Source: Gammaproteobacteria bacterium (GTDB lineage Bacteria > Pseudomonadota > Gammaproteobacteria > Steroidobacterales > UBA11654). From it: DNA of 45,851 nucleotides. The notes under the pieces were generated by a model. That model saw only the letters and a list, made by a program, of their open reading frames with translations. It was not told the DNA's origin and did no database searches. Every line of letters starts with the position of its first letter. Positions within the stretch are counted from its first letter, which is position 1. A program made the position numbers and the translations under genes. The stretch is from NCBI GenBank assembly GCA_029244925.1, contig JAQWQE010000060.1, positions 1 to 45,851 of the forward strand, given 5' to 3'. Positions 17,695 through 38,180 of the stretch are shown here, piece by piece.

Positions 17695-19164
17695 ATGGAT
17701 AATCTAAAAGTAGGAATCAGTGCATTAACAACCTATGTTCCTCCATATCGTGTAGATCTTGAGCAATGGTGCGAATGGACTGATAATTCATGGAATAAGA
17801 TAAACAATATCGTCGGTTCTGGTTTCAGAGTTTTGGGCCCCAATCAAACAATTTACTCGATGGCTGCAAATGCAGTTCTTGATTTAATTGTATCTCATGA
17901 AGTTAATCCATCAGAGATAGGATTTTTAGCTTTAGGCACAGAATCTAGCACTGATAACTCAGCAGGTTCCATCATCATCAAGGGCATGGTTAATGAAGAA
18001 TTAAAAAATAGAAAAATGGAAACTATTTCAAGTCGCTGCGAGGTACCCGAGTTTAAACAAGCATGCTTATCAGGTATTTACGCCTTAAAAAATGCTGTTC
18101 GTTTTATTAAATCAGATGCACCGTCCTTAAAAGCAATTATTGTTTGCTCTGATATTGCCCTCTATCAAATAGGCGCCAGTGGAGAACCAACACAAGGAGC
18201 AGGAGCTATCGCTGCTTTGGTTGAGAGAGATCCAAAAATTGCTGAAGTTAGAACGGAACTCTCAGGTACTTCATCAGATTATCGTTTATTGGACTTTAGA
18301 AAGCCAATTCAGTACAGAGCTACACAAGCAAGTGATCATTCTGATTTTGATATTGATTTGCCTATATTTAATGGTAAATACTCATCATCTTGTTATGTAG
18401 ATGAAACCATTGCAGCGATGGATGATATGACAAAAAAAAGAACAATACATACCGCAAAATACCTCAGAAACATTAGTGCTGCATTTCTTCATAGACCATT
18501 TCATAAAATGCCTATGACTGCTTTTTCAATTGTTTATTTGCATGCATTAGCTCATGGGAATAAAAATGATAAAGCAGAACTGGAAGCCTATGCTTTAGCG
18601 TCTGATATTGATTTTGAAGAGTTGTTAAATGAATTAATTAATAGACCCAATGTGTCAGAATTTGCTAACAATGATGTTAATGCTGATTTTCTTCCACTAT
18701 CTAATAGAGTAGTTAAGAAAGTTAATAATGATGATAAATTCCAAAATAATGTTTTGGCGAAAATCAAATACGGTTCTTTGCTAACAATGGAGATGGGAAA
18801 TATTTATTCAGGATCTGTTTTTGGATGGTTTGCTGCAGGAATGGAGGATGCCATAAATAAAGGTATTGATTGGTCAAATCAAGAAGCTCTTTTATTTGGA
18901 TATGGAAGTGGCGATGCTGCAGAAGTGATACCACTTATTTTTACAAATGACTGGAAAGAAGCATCCATTAAATCTAATTTTTCTGATGCTTTTAAAGATC
19001 GATACGACCTATCTCAAGAGCAATATCTTACTTTAAGATCTGAAAAAACAACCAATGGGATAGATCATCAATTAAGAAATCAATTCGTTGTTAAAAGAAT
19101 AGGAACAGAAGAGCGAGATGACTTTCAGGATGCTGGAATAGAGTATTACGAGTACTTAAATTAA
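17695..19164 (+). CDS. hydroxymethylglutaryl-CoA synthase-like protein
   Basis: EFKQACLSGIYAL (Cys nucleophile region), SGEPTQGAGAIAAL, FLHRPFHKM (catalytic His region), GNIYSGSVFG, FGYGSGDAAEV, all in HMG-CoA synthase order. Confidence 0.85.
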   Translation: MDNLKVGISALTTYVPPYRVDLEQWCEWTDNSWNKINNIVGSGFRVLGPNQTIYSMAANAVLDLIVSHEVNPSEIGFLALGTESSTDNSAGSIIIKGMVNEELKNRKMETISSRCEVPEFKQACLSGIYALKNAVRFIKSDAPSLKAIIVCSDIALYQIGASGEPTQGAGAIAALVERDPKIAEVRTELSGTSSDYRLLDFRKPIQYRATQASDHSDFDIDLPIFNGKYSSSCYVDETIAAMDDMTKKRTIHTAKYLRNISAAFLHRPFHKMPMTAFSIVYLHALAHGNKNDKAELEAYALASDIDFEELLNELINRPNVSEFANNDVNADFLPLSNRVVKKVNNDDKFQNNVLAKIKYGSLLTMEMGNIYSGSVFGWFAAGMEDAINKGIDWSNQEALLFGYGSGDAAEVIPLIFTNDWKEASIKSNFSDAFKDRYDLSQEQYLTLRSEKTTNGIDHQLRNQFVVKRIGTEERDDFQDAGIEYYEYLN

Positions 19165-32592: not shown

Positions 32593-33021
32593 ATGATCAT
32601 CGTGTGTAAAAAAACCCTACTAGCATTTCTATCAGTATTAATTATGATGGCTTCTTTTCTTTCTCTTGCAAAAGAAGAAGATGGGGCTCAAGTCTCAATA
32701 CTAAAACCATTGGATGGAGAAGTTGTGAATCAAACTTTCAGAGTTACATTTGATATTAAACATTTTGATTTAGCACCAGCAGGAACTTATAAAATAAATA
32801 CAGGGCATCATCATTTGATCATAGACGCAGAATTGCCAACCTTAGATTCTCCAATTCCAAGTAATTCCAATTATCTTCATTTTGGTAAAGCTCAAGAATA
32901 TACAGATATAACTCTACTGCCAGGTAAACATACATTGCAGTTATTATTGGGCGATGGAAATCACATGCCTCATGAAAAACCGATATATTCGGAACCAATT
33001 GAAATTGAGGTTAAGCCTTAG
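32593..33021 (+). CDS. DUF4399 domain-containing protein (exported)
   Basis: Signal peptide; ILKPLDGEVVNQTFRVTFDI...GHHHLIIDAELP...LLLGDGNHMPHEKPIYSEPIEIEV. Confidence 0.85.
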   Translation: MIIVCKKTLLAFLSVLIMMASFLSLAKEEDGAQVSILKPLDGEVVNQTFRVTFDIKHFDLAPAGTYKINTGHHHLIIDAELPTLDSPIPSNSNYLHFGKAQEYTDITLLPGKHTLQLLLGDGNHMPHEKPIYSEPIEIEVKP

Positions 33022-33820
33022 TTCTCAGCTCTCTTTGTTCAATAAAATCAATTAAAAGGTCAATAGTTTTTTTGGTATCAAGCTCAGGTGAGGCTATTAA
33101 AGTCTTTCCTAATTCTGCAATTCTCGCTGATGGAATATCTTTTTTAATGATTTTTAGTTTATCAATAAAAAAATCATTAATTGCAGACATAACTAGTATA
33201 GGGCATTTAACCTCTCTAAGAATTTGAGCAAAATCTTGCTTCTTTAATGAAGCAAAAGCTTGGTTTCTTCCTTCTATAGATCTCAAAGCACCAATTAATT
33301 CTAAGTTAACCAATTCAGGGTCAAAAACTGGAAAAAAACTTTTGATAAGAGTAAAACGCTCATGGAGATATTTTCCACTATGGTCTGGGTTAGGGATCTG
33401 TGTAAAATTCTTAAAAAAGAGTTCTCGTTCTTCATATGAGAAGTAGGCAGCACCATTGAGGGCTAGAGATTGAACTCTTTCAGGCCACAGTAACGCTATT
33501 TCAGCAGCAAAATGAGTGCCAGTATGATGTGCATATATATGAAAGTTATCAATACTAAGAGCATTGATGGCCTCACAAAGCCAATCTCTATAATTACTAA
33601 TACTCGGCATTCCTTCAGGGTTAAAGGAGTTCCCAAATCCTGGTGTATCGAGTGCATAAATTGGTCTTAAACCATTCAATTCATACATCATTCTTTCGTA
33701 CATAACAGAACTACTAGGCGTTCTATGAAATAAGACTAATGGCAATCCTTTGCCTTCAGTATAACGATAATGCATTTGCCCAGAGTTGGTATCTATATAG
33801 GATTTTTTTATTTCTACCAT
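33011..33820 (-). CDS. alpha/beta hydrolase
   Basis: LPLVLFHRTPSSSVMYERMMYEL...PIYALDTPGFGNS...YAHHTGTHFAAEIALLWPERVQSLAL. Confidence 0.87.
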   Translation of the reverse strand: MVEIKKSYIDTNSGQMHYRYTEGKGLPLVLFHRTPSSSVMYERMMYELNGLRPIYALDTPGFGNSFNPEGMPSISNYRDWLCEAINALSIDNFHIYAHHTGTHFAAEIALLWPERVQSLALNGAAYFSYEERELFFKNFTQIPNPDHSGKYLHERFTLIKSFFPVFDPELVNLELIGALRSIEGRNQAFASLKKQDFAQILREVKCPILVMSAINDFFIDKLKIIKKDIPSARIAELGKTLIASPELDTKKTIDLLIDFIEQRELRTKA

Positions 33821-33935: not shown

Positions 33936-34502
33936 ATGAAGAAAAGAATAATTGTAGGGATATCAGGAGCAAGTGGGGTGATCTATGGGATTCGCTTACT
34001 GCAGGTACTGCAAAATGATTCAGAAATTGAAACCCATTTAGTTTTAACAAATGGGGGAAAGCTTAATATTACATTGGAAACTGATTTTGATATTAAATCA
34101 ATAGAGGGTTTGGCAGATGTAGTACATAGCGACAAGAACTTAGGAGCTACAATTGCGAGCGGTTCCTTTCAAACATTGGGAATGATTATTGCTCCATGTT
34201 CGATGAAAACTCTATCTGGTATAGTTAATTCATACGCCACGAATCTTATTGTTAGAGCTTCCGATGTCATCTTAAAGGAAAGCAGACAACTTATTTTAGT
34301 TCCAAGAGAGACTCCTCTTCATACGGGACATTGTGAATTACTCTATAGAGCCTCAGTGCTAGGTGCTCAAATTGTTCCACCCAATCCTGCCTTTTATAAT
34401 AATCCAGAATCTTTGGACGATATTATCAATCATACAGTTGGCAGAGTTCTGGATTTAGTAGGCTTAGATAATGACATTGTTTCTCGATGGGAAGGCGTCT
34501 AA
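33936..34502 (+). CDS. ubiX: UbiX family flavin prenyltransferase
   Basis: RIIVGISGASGVIYGIRLL; IIAPCSMKTLSGIVNSYATNLIVRASDVILKESRQLILVPRETPLHTGH; VGRVLDLVGLDN. Confidence 0.93.
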   Translation: MKKRIIVGISGASGVIYGIRLLQVLQNDSEIETHLVLTNGGKLNITLETDFDIKSIEGLADVVHSDKNLGATIASGSFQTLGMIIAPCSMKTLSGIVNSYATNLIVRASDVILKESRQLILVPRETPLHTGHCELLYRASVLGAQIVPPNPAFYNNPESLDDIINHTVGRVLDLVGLDNDIVSRWEGV

Positions 34503-34509
34503 TTAGAGA

Positions 34510-35028
34510 ATGGATGATGGTGTTTCAGTTGATGATTTACTAGCGAAAGTTGAATCATGTTTAATTTCTCACAATACAATCTCCATTGCTTCTGTTCATG
34601 AAAAAGAAATATCAGCAGCAAGTGTTTTTTATGTATCCGATATTGATCTAAAGATTTACTTTCTTTCTTTTGATAAAACTCTTCATTCGCAACATATTTT
34701 TCAGAATAGAAACATTGCTGCGACCATCAATAAAGATGTTGAGGATTGGACTGAAATTAAAGGGCTTCAAATTAAGGGTTATGCAGAGAAGTTAGATGAG
34801 CATCGAAGAGAAGAAATACTCAACCAATACAAGGAAAAATTCAAGTACATCAGTCAAATTCTTGATCTGCCAAAGAATAGTAATGAGCAAAAAATAGCAG
34901 AACAGTTCCAAGCAATCAGTGTTTTTATTTTTACTCCAAACTCATTTAGATTAATTGATAATTCACTTGGTTTTGGAAAAAAAATGGAGTTAGCTCATTC
35001 AGATGGGGTTTGGATAAGAACTAATTAA
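34510..35028 (+). CDS. pyridoxamine 5'-phosphate oxidase-like flavin-binding protein
   Basis: NTISIASVHEKEISAASVFYVSDIDLKIYFLSFDKTLHSQHIFQNRNIAATIN: split-barrel PNPOx-like pattern. Confidence 0.78.
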   Translation: MDDGVSVDDLLAKVESCLISHNTISIASVHEKEISAASVFYVSDIDLKIYFLSFDKTLHSQHIFQNRNIAATINKDVEDWTEIKGLQIKGYAEKLDEHRREEILNQYKEKFKYISQILDLPKNSNEQKIAEQFQAISVFIFTPNSFRLIDNSLGFGKKMELAHSDGVWIRTN

Positions 35029-35042
35029 TTCGGATTATTAGT

Positions 35043-35831
35043 CTATTCATCTCCACTCGAGTAAGCAGGTAATGTTCCCAAATGAACTCCACTATCCATG
35101 ATTAGAACCTCACCCGTTATTAGTTTTGCACCTTCAAGAAACCAGACTAGAGTTTCTGCAACATCTTCGGCAGTCGCAACTTCTTGCAGGGGAAGTTTTT
35201 TTCTTGAGCCCTCAAGCATATTCTCATATTTTTCTTTGCTCATACCTGCTTTGAGCCAACGAGTTTGAATCATTCCTGGTGCAACACTATTAATACGAAT
35301 TTCAGGTCCTAGAATATGAGCCAAAGACTTTGTCATCATATTCAATGCTGCTTTCGATGAAGCATAGGCAATGGATGACCCTATACCTGTGACTCCTGCA
35401 AGAGAGGAATCATTAACAATTGCTCCTTTTCCTGCTTTTCTCATATGAGGTTCCACAGCTCTTACCATTTGATAGGCTCCCACTACATTGACTGCATAGA
35501 TATCTAAAAAATCATCTTTACTGAGTCCATCTAAGTTTGAATAGGCGTTGAATTTTGTTTTACCAGCATTATTGATTAGATAGTCAATTCTTCCCCATTT
35601 ATCGACTGCGGCTTTAGCCATAGATTGGCAATCATCATCATTAGATACATCGCCTTGACAGATTAAAACTTCAACCCCATGTTCTTCCGCCAATGCGGCA
35701 GTTTCTTTTGCTTCTTCTTCACTTCGTGTGTAATTGATGACAACATTGCATCCTTTCTTAGCTAATAAAATTGCAGCAGCGGAACCCACGCCTGTTGCGG
35801 AGCCAGTGATTATTGCAACTTTTCCTTTCAT
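35043..35831 (-). CDS. short-chain dehydrogenase/reductase (SDR)
   Basis: GKVAIITGSATGVGSAAAILLAKKG; NNAG; YASSKAALNMMTKSLA (YxxxK); C-terminal LITGEVLIMDSG. Confidence 0.92.
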   Translation of the reverse strand: MKGKVAIITGSATGVGSAAAILLAKKGCNVVINYTRSEEEAKETAALAEEHGVEVLICQGDVSNDDDCQSMAKAAVDKWGRIDYLINNAGKTKFNAYSNLDGLSKDDFLDIYAVNVVGAYQMVRAVEPHMRKAGKGAIVNDSSLAGVTGIGSSIAYASSKAALNMMTKSLAHILGPEIRINSVAPGMIQTRWLKAGMSKEKYENMLEGSRKKLPLQEVATAEDVAETLVWFLEGAKLITGEVLIMDSGVHLGTLPAYSSGDE

Positions 35832-35998: not shown

Positions 35999-37507
35999 AT
36001 GGCTTTTAATGATATGAGAGATTACATCCAACACTTAAAGGATAAAGGACAGTTGATAGATGTGAATACTGAACTGAATGTGGCTAGGGAAACCACTGAA
36101 TTGCAACCTTTGATGAGACATCTACACAATATTGATGGACCAGCTCTGATGCTAAACAATTTATCTGGTTATAACACTCAAGGTATTCCTGTTTTATTTA
36201 ATCCTTATGGAACCAGAGAAAGAACTTCTATGATTTTAGGTGAAGAGGGTGCTTTTGATGGAAAGGTTAAGCATGCAAAGATTCTAACTGACCCATCCAG
36301 TTGGCTTAAGCCAAACTGTATTGATGCATCATCGGCTTCTTGTAAAGATGTAAAAATAGAAAAAAAAGACATTGATATTGGTAAGCAATTGCCACACGTA
36401 TGGTTTGGAAAGGAAGGACCTTCATACATTACCAATGCCATCGTGATTACTAAGGATCCAGAAACTGGTATTCCAAATACAGGGTGTTATCGATTGACTC
36501 AATTGTGGAATGCATCGCATCCAAATGGTGAAGTGTATTCTGAAGAAGAGCAAAGAAAATGCCTCTCTATTTTTGCTTTCTGGAATCCACCAGGAAATCA
36601 CATTGGCTTGCACTGGGCGAAAGCACAAGAAATGAACAAGCCATTGGAGGTTGCAATTGCTTGTGTGGTTGATCCAGTTATACAATTAGCTAGTGCAACA
36701 GGTATACCTTTCGGTATGGATGAAATGGATTTTGCAGGAGGGTTAAAAGGAACACCTGTTGATGTTGTTAAATGTGAGACCGTTGATATTGAAGTCCCAG
36801 CGTCTGCTGAATGGGTTCTTGAAGGTAAATTTTTACCCAATCGAGATGTCACAATAGGACCTCATTCTAATCCTGTTGGATACTATGATGACGCTCAGTT
36901 ATTTCCACTGATAGAACTTGATTGTATTACACATAGAAAAGATCCTATTTGGTATGCCACAATGGAAATGGAACCACCATTTGATCATAATTACATGGCC
37001 TGTCTTCCAACGGAGGGAGAATTGTTCAGTGATCTGCAATCTAAAATACCAGAAGTTAAAGACGTTGTAGTCACTCCAAATCTCAGTTATTTTATCCAAC
37101 TCTCTGTCGATGGACCCCAAAAACCTCATCCAGAATTTGGTAAACATGTGCTTCATGCTGTCTGGGGGGCTAGTGGTAGGTGGGGTAGAACAGCAAAAGT
37201 TATTGTTGTCGTCGGACCCGATGTTAACCCTTATGATCTTTCAGAAATAGAATGGGCTATACAGACAAGAGTTCAACCAATTACTGACACCATTATGAAT
37301 AAATCAGGACAAGCATTTTTAATGGATCCATCAGCAACGAAAGATCCAGGGCATGGAATTGCGCTTCAGTCTGAGCAAATTGGTATCGATGCAACCATAA
37401 AAGTTTTTGAGCGTTTTTCGTCTTATCCGGAGTACAGCAATGCAAAAGCTGATGATGTTGCTGCAATTGCAGAAAAATTAAAAGATGTTCTTAAGCAAAA
37501 CAATTAA
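35999..37507 (+). CDS. UbiD family protein (atypical active-site motif)
   Basis: MAFNDMRDYIQHLKDKGQLIDV; DGPALMLNNLSGY; FNPYGTRERTSMILG; NTGCYR; VKCETVDIEVPASAEWVLEGKF; GYYDDAQLFP. Confidence 0.9.
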   Translation: MAFNDMRDYIQHLKDKGQLIDVNTELNVARETTELQPLMRHLHNIDGPALMLNNLSGYNTQGIPVLFNPYGTRERTSMILGEEGAFDGKVKHAKILTDPSSWLKPNCIDASSASCKDVKIEKKDIDIGKQLPHVWFGKEGPSYITNAIVITKDPETGIPNTGCYRLTQLWNASHPNGEVYSEEEQRKCLSIFAFWNPPGNHIGLHWAKAQEMNKPLEVAIACVVDPVIQLASATGIPFGMDEMDFAGGLKGTPVDVVKCETVDIEVPASAEWVLEGKFLPNRDVTIGPHSNPVGYYDDAQLFPLIELDCITHRKDPIWYATMEMEPPFDHNYMACLPTEGELFSDLQSKIPEVKDVVVTPNLSYFIQLSVDGPQKPHPEFGKHVLHAVWGASGRWGRTAKVIVVVGPDVNPYDLSEIEWAIQTRVQPITDTIMNKSGQAFLMDPSATKDPGHGIALQSEQIGIDATIKVFERFSSYPEYSNAKADDVAAIAEKLKDVLKQNN

Positions 37508-37574: not shown

Positions 37575-38180
37575 TTACATAAAGAAACCATGACCAGCGC
37601 CAACCATACTCATTAACATGGGTATCGATAGCATGGTGTTCGTTCTTGAAGCTAGAAATGCAATTCTAGCACCTTTTGCTTTTTCTTCAGGAGTAGCATC
37701 GACTATACCAAGAACTTTCTTTTGATTGGGCCATATGAGAATCCACACATTAAATAACATAATGGTACCCATCCAAGCACCTATTCCAATGGTAGTAGCA
37801 TAAGAATTACCAGTTCTCATTCCTAATTCAAAAGCATCACCTAAGTTACCATTATGGAGTAAGAAAGCAGCACCTGAAATCCAGGTCAATAGAGCTGCCC
37901 ATCTAAACCATAGCAATGCTCTTGGGGCAACATATTTTGATATTGCTGCCGGTCCTGGTCCACTTTCATCTGCATTCGCTTCAGCGACAGATGGCACCTG
38001 AACAAAATTAAAATAGTACAGTAAGCCTATCCATAGGACTCCAGCTAAAACATGAATCCAAATGATTAATGAATTTGCTGCATTGGCACCTGAAAGGTCA
38101 GTTCCTTGTGCTATAACAATAGCAATTACAACTCCTGAAATAATTGTCCCGGTAATTTTATCTAATAGTTTCATTTTCAT
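37575..38180 (-). CDS. urate hydroxylase PuuD N-terminal-like membrane protein
   Basis: IIWIHVLAGVLWIGLLYYFNFVQVPSVAEA; RALLWFRWAALLTWISGAAFLL; IMLFNVWILIWPNQKKVLG; multiple TM segments. Confidence 0.78.
   Translation of the reverse strand: MKMKLLDKITGTIISGVVIAIVIAQGTDLSGANAANSLIIWIHVLAGVLWIGLLYYFNFVQVPSVAEANADESGPGPAAISKYVAPRALLWFRWAALLTWISGAAFLLHNGNLGDAFELGMRTGNSYATTIGIGAWMGTIMLFNVWILIWPNQKKVLGIVDATPEEKAKGARIAFLASRTNTMLSIPMLMSMVGAGHGFFM

Follow-up and report, generated by a model that had tools for sequence, protein, structure and literature searches.

UbiD-family decarboxylases are described as conserving a Glu-Arg-Glu/Asp network throughout the family (PMC5818171, PMC8379154, PMC8988006). 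In Fdc1, the ferulic acid decarboxylase, the E282Q variant is inactive and E277Q nearly so, with Asp variants remaining active; for prFMN maturation, Arg173 is required but the glutamates can be lost (PMC5818171). The two acids lie in the sequence EGPFGE in HmfF, the 2,5-furandicarboxylate decarboxylase (6h6v/6h6x), and in VdcC, a phenolic acid decarboxylase (7ae4) that keeps the E(D)-R-E arrangement (PMC8379154); E. coli UbiD (2idb), the 4-hydroxy-3-polyprenylbenzoate decarboxylase, has EGPYGD. Specificity for furan-type substrates is reported to be set by HmfF H297, which corresponds to HudA N318 (PMC7976604).

The window analyzed here comprises 45,851 nt of contig JAQWQE010000060.1, from assembly GCA_029244925.1 of a marine gammaproteobacterium of the order Steroidobacterales. 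On its forward strand, an open reading frame at 35999–37507 encodes 502 amino acids and, by translation, Pfam, NCBIfam, and HMMER alignment, specifies a UbiD-family protein with IGPHSN in the place of E-G-P-[FY]-G-[ED]. The UbiD_N, UbiD, and UbiD_C domains are all matched above the Pfam gathering scores, and the general UbiD model TIGR00148 gives 272.4 bits against a cut-off of 244.85; this is thus a full-length member of the UbiD family, to which the original prediction had assigned it. Its scores with the NCBIfam equivalogs, i.e., PRK10922 (158.9 vs. a cut-off of 788), VdcC (second best, 231.8 vs. 650), the menaquinone-type model, and phenylphosphate carboxylase alpha/beta, are all far below the cut-offs. 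The best phmmer match among solved structures is HmfF, and VdcC is also matched over the full length.

The IGPHSN motif (residues 286–291; 36854–36871, forward strand) was aligned by HMMER with the motifs of all these solved UbiDs without a gap, so that Ile286 occupies the site of Fdc1 Glu277, Asn291 that of Glu282, and His289 replaces Phe/Tyr. The earlier by-eye alignment, which had placed Ile and Asn at these positions within 36840–36890, is thereby reproduced, and since the HMMER alignments agree and the motif is gap-free, we consider that observation correct. The possibility of a register shift was rejected, as an acid is found one to four residues upstream of Ile286 in many related proteins, but at no fixed position. 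The arginine motif is preserved, also as predicted: in NTGCYR (residues 160–165; 36476–36493, forward strand), Asn160 and Arg165 correspond to Fdc1 Asn168 and Arg173. Glu271 (36809–36811, forward strand) corresponds to the metal ligand Glu233. Hence the R-Xn-E-X4-(E/D) pattern of E(D)-R-E decarboxylases is lacking, with Arg165 present but Ile286 and Asn291 at the acid sites, and the Glu-Arg-Glu/Asp network is, as had been claimed, missing from this protein.

A suggestion that IGPHSN might mark a clade in a family tree proved well founded. I-G-x-H-S-N defines a conserved monophyletic group, placed on one branch of the maximum-likelihood tree with support 100/100; the stem is long, at 1.57 changes per column. 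In an alignment with 61 rows from this clade, some of them duplicates because the same gene was seen in overlapping loci, the Glu277 site is Ile in 58, Val in two, and Thr in one, and the Glu282 site is Asn in all 61. His289 and Ser290 are invariant, other UbiDs having Phe/Tyr at position 289, and Arg165 is present in 61/61. The residues of the metal and prFMN-phosphate site are retained as well: Asn160 in 60/61 rows (the remaining one is a gap), Glu271 in 61/61, and His201, the equivalent of Fdc1 His191, in 55/61. Among non-clade UbiDs, the arginine is found in 110/110 rows, and both acids in nearly all of the 108 that cover the motif; about 100 of the other UbiDs sampled retain the acid-base residue. 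The exceptions among the 110 are a small TLGEF group of ambiguous alignment, two rows with Asn for Glu277, the divergent and poorly aligning L202, and two truncated sequences. One further locus, L157, carries EGPFGE and hence does not belong to the clade.

Comparison of the window with its 98% relative (L005) yielded dN 0.008 and dS 0.173 (dN/dS about 0.05), so purifying selection on the gene is strong, and the motif codons of relatives vary at synonymous positions only. A one-off mutation is ruled out by the conservation in every clade row, and a decaying gene by the dN/dS value. The copy in a genome of the same genus (G005), located at L085 (G005:C1:52400-53700), is split by stops or frameshifts, which may reflect a sequencing error or a pseudogene.

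The clade protein was found in 11/11 genomes of the window's family, counting the fragmented copy in G005, and in 52 of the 196 sampled genomes of the order. No members were detected outside the order, at the thresholds used, among samples of 369 genomes of the class and 399 of the phylum; the outgroup matches inspected in the phylum search were UbiDs of the EGPYGD/EGPFGD type. These E. coli-type proteins were the nearest outgroup matches, with about 26–34% whole-length identity to the clade, which reads IGxHSNPVGYYD in the motif region. Thus, among the genomes sampled, the clade is restricted to the window's own order. A scan of a collection of named genomes recovered two close relatives only, and a scan of viral contigs found no clade member. 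Two IMG/VR contigs catalogued as viral (L122 and L204) do carry UbiD-family genes, possibly through cellular contamination, and the motif region of L122 is unusual (QHTHSGKAMPEF). A literature search with partial coverage found no paper on the IGxHSN clade.

The second hallmark of the clade, which the original prediction had missed along with its other new invariant residues, is a 16-residue insertion within residues 166–200 (36494–36598, forward strand), directly after the catalytic Arg165. The spacing from Arg165 to His201 is 35 residues in 60/60 clade rows vs. 17–19 in 102 other UbiDs; neither Fdc1 nor HmfF has such an insertion behind the arginine. The window's protein carries the whole signature: a residue of the I/V/T set at 286, His289, Ser290, Asn291, and the insertion. 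Residues invariant in the clade only include His205, His289, Ser290, Glu323, and His330, with Asp329 conserved beside the last of these. Three of these positions fall in EMEPPFDHN (residues 323–331; 36965–36991, forward strand), where Glu323 is replaced by Thr, Ala, or Pro in other UbiDs. In the phmmer/HMMER alignments, which have a gap nearby, His330 faces residue 296 of 6h6x, a histidine in HmfF that we take to be H297. The original prediction of an otherwise unchanged fold therefore holds for the domains, as the three-domain architecture of Fdc1 is retained, but not for the details, since the insertion is fixed and dozens of positions are invariant in this clade specifically. An AlphaFold2 model built on a shallow five-row alignment had a mean pLDDT of 40.1 and was discarded.

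The genes around the UbiD gene form a recurrent core. Upstream of it lie an alpha/beta hydrolase (33011–33820, reverse strand), which occupies the same place across the window's own family; the UbiX flavin prenyltransferase (33936–34502, forward strand; Pfam/NCBIfam), which is the only UbiX found in the assembly and provides the UbiX looked for in genomes with E(D)-R-E decarboxylases; a small PNPOx-like/YhbP-like protein of flavin-binding type (34510–35028, forward strand; Pfam match on an orthologue), conserved beside UbiX; and an SDR-family oxidoreductase (35043–35831, reverse strand), divergent from UbiD and adjoining it in most clade loci. No VdcD-like gene was recognized beside the window's UbiD gene. 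By analogy with PhdC and LpdD, which help prFMN maturation for other UbiDs (PMC13040415, PMC10865409), the PNPOx-like protein may be a prFMN maturase or chaperone; the analogy is one of putative role, PhdC being a flavin reductase of the HpaC type. Elsewhere in the window, 17695–19164 encodes an HMG-CoA-synthase-like protein (N- and C-terminal domains, weak scores) adjoining pyruvate kinase.

Across 48 loci searched by tblastn, the neighbors were SDR (40), UbiX (30), PNPOx-like (27), LeuC (22), LeuD (19), PrpB-like (19), PepM (19), and PanE (15), all of these counts being lower bounds because contig ends truncate many of the loci. In another family of the order (f15), the cluster in many genomes runs on from UbiD through genes for PanE-like, LeuC-like, and LeuD-like proteins, a PrpB-like lyase, PhyH, PepM-nucleotidyltransferase, Ppd, and PhnW, in that order. 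PepM, Ppd, and PhnW, encoded by 2-aminoethylphosphonate genes, pass the curated equivalog cut-offs, and the best NCBIfam match of PhyH is methylphosphonate hydroxylase, below the cut-off. The composite cluster, in which the UbiX/SDR/UbiD core is combined with PanE-, LeuC-, LeuD-, and PrpB-like genes and PepM-Ppd-PhnW (L061:3623-17491, L057:6010-15460, and others), is apparently undescribed; no paper in the partially covered literature mentioned UbiD along with PEP mutase, with dimethylmalate, or with the biosynthesis of phosphonates. A different context is seen in a subgroup of mostly second copies (L043, L045, L047, L072, and L078), where a carbon-nitrogen hydrolase adjoins instead and where most loci also have an acyl-CoA-synthetase-like and a CMD-like gene nearby.

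Part of this cluster resembles the module of DmdAB and 2,3-dimethylmalate lyase, since in relatives a small subunit of the LeuD/DmdB family, scoring above the cut-off, adjoins a PrpB-family lyase. In the window's own family, however, the LeuC-, LeuD-, and PrpB-like genes are missing from the UbiD locus, and we know of no UbiD partner in the DmdAB/dimethylmalate lyase pathway.

PepM lies about 50 bases downstream of UbiD in 8/11 genomes of the window's family, whereas no match to it was found in the window's genome or in two sister genomes (G006 and G009), which keep only the core of alpha/beta hydrolase, UbiX, PNPOx, SDR, and UbiD. In the window, the place directly downstream of UbiD that PepM occupies in those eight genomes is taken by a membrane protein (37575–38180), part of which matches Urate_ox_N. 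No PrpB-like match was found in the window's genome at the threshold used. As the assembly is 79% complete, absences from it are weak observations, but the local gene order backs the lack of PepM. Because three genomes without PepM keep the core, its function is independent of the phosphonate genes, even though the two often lie together, and in the window's genome UbiD must work without either PepM or the PrpB-like lyase. An obligate role in phosphonate synthesis was therefore rejected for the window's species.

The window's genome encodes four UbiD-like genes in 1.6 Mb: the clade member and three paralogues, of which L001 has EGPFGE, L003 has TLGEFGN, and L004 ends before the motif. We rejected L003 as a second acid-less variant, since its alignment is ambiguous and phmmer retains the Glu282 equivalent. 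A UbiD subgroup with the motif T-[LM]-G-E-F-x-x-x-Y-G and a variable Glu277 site is represented in the window's genome by L083:7483-8874 (contig C37), beside a carbon-nitrogen hydrolase, and includes the relatives L149, L153, L163, L183, L186, L192, L196, L197, and L199. In f15, the paralogues L187 and L193 have NGPY[GA]E, with Asn for Glu277 and Glu282 present. Rieske oxygenase and carbon-nitrogen hydrolase genes occur near some other UbiD copies of the window's genome, and UbiD genes have expanded elsewhere in the order, up to 10 UbiD-domain genes in a 2.4-Mb genome (G058). No ubiquinone-type UbiD with EGPYGD was found in the window's 79% complete assembly, which contains a single UbiX. Since that UbiX also serves the other UbiDs, its adjacency is no proof that the clade protein uses prFMN.

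Nevertheless, from the retained Asn160, Glu271, Arg165, and, in most members, His201, together with the neighboring UbiX, we infer that the clade protein binds UbiX-made prFMN. As maturation in Fdc1 needs Arg173 alone and turnover needs both acids, binding and maturation of the cofactor are plausible here, and acid-base catalysis by glutamates in the manner of Fdc1 is not. The reading that we tentatively prefer, while granting it somewhat less than an even chance, is that the protein is a prFMN (de)carboxylase, acting in one direction or the other on a small polyanionic acid, in which the Glu-Arg-Glu/Asp network has been exchanged for a neutral Ile-Arg-Asn site with an invariant His-Ser pair. 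Two carboxylates near the substrate-binding arginine would repel a second acid group, and hence Ile/Asn and His/Ser would suit a multiply charged anion, such as a dicarboxylate, a tricarboxylate, or a phosphono-carboxylate; with both carboxylates next to Arg165 gone, its second anionic group could be accommodated. Enzymes of the LeuCD and PrpB types, like PepM, use di- or tricarboxylates or phosphonopyruvate as substrates. Such a substrate is favored because the LeuCD-like, PrpB-like, PanE-like, and PepM neighbors handle compounds of this kind. Proton transfer might proceed via His289 and/or the Asp329-His330 pair, or be assisted by the second acid group of the substrate itself. Its partner would be the divergently transcribed SDR, joined in many relatives by the LeuCD-like hydratase, the PrpB-like lyase, and the PanE-like reductase.

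More generally, replacement proton donors could be His289, the Asp329-His330 pair, Glu323, or a residue of the insertion. This leads to a realistic alternative, to which we assign a substantial minority share of the probability: ordinary UbiD decarboxylation with a relocated donor, Glu323, Asp329, or an insertion residue standing in for Glu282. The invariance of Glu323, the conservation of Asp329 and His330, and the position of the insertion directly behind the catalytic arginine agree with it, but no conserved acid is present at the canonical sites or at any fixed adjoining place. It is unlikely that the protein is a prFMN enzyme of a non-decarboxylating kind, catalyzing isomerization, addition, or elimination via a prFMN-substrate adduct with no loss of CO2: both residues needed for turnover in Fdc1 are gone and the maturation arginine is retained (PMC5818171), as such an enzyme might have it, yet the cited literature holds no such activity among UbiD enzymes. 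Still less probable is a non-catalytic homologue that binds prFMN on behalf of the other UbiD paralogues, as their carrier, chaperone, or regulator, despite the lost acids, the retained arginine and metal-site residues, the location beside the sole UbiX, and the three other UbiD-like genes in the assembly; dozens of very strongly conserved positions, the insertion and the clade's own His, Asp, and Glu residues among them, speak against it, and the recurrent SDR, hydratase, and lyase neighbors look metabolic. Finally, misalignment or a decaying copy, to which only the gene broken into pieces in the G005 assembly lends color, is for practical purposes refuted across the whole clade by the gap-free motif alignment, the 61/61 conservation, and the low dN/dS.

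Returning to the polyanionic-acid (de)carboxylase, its extension to a full pathway is doubtful and is offered as speculation: a prFMN enzyme lacking the acid-base glutamates would use its neutral Ile-Arg-Asn/His-Ser site to process a multiply charged substrate, perhaps a tricarboxylate or phosphono-carboxylate, within an undescribed route of SDR and LeuCD-, PrpB-, and PanE-like enzymes, often physically linked to aminoethylphosphonate genes in marine gammaproteobacteria.

On sequence grounds, this conserved acid-less lineage is a distinct, order-restricted UbiD subfamily. As a natural clade without both acids and under strong purifying selection, it makes the function of these residues directly testable. 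With the IGxHSN clade, the chemistry of prFMN may reach further substrates, and the association with genes for phosphonate biosynthesis, conserved in some lineages, points to an unrecognized metabolic route in marine bacteria.
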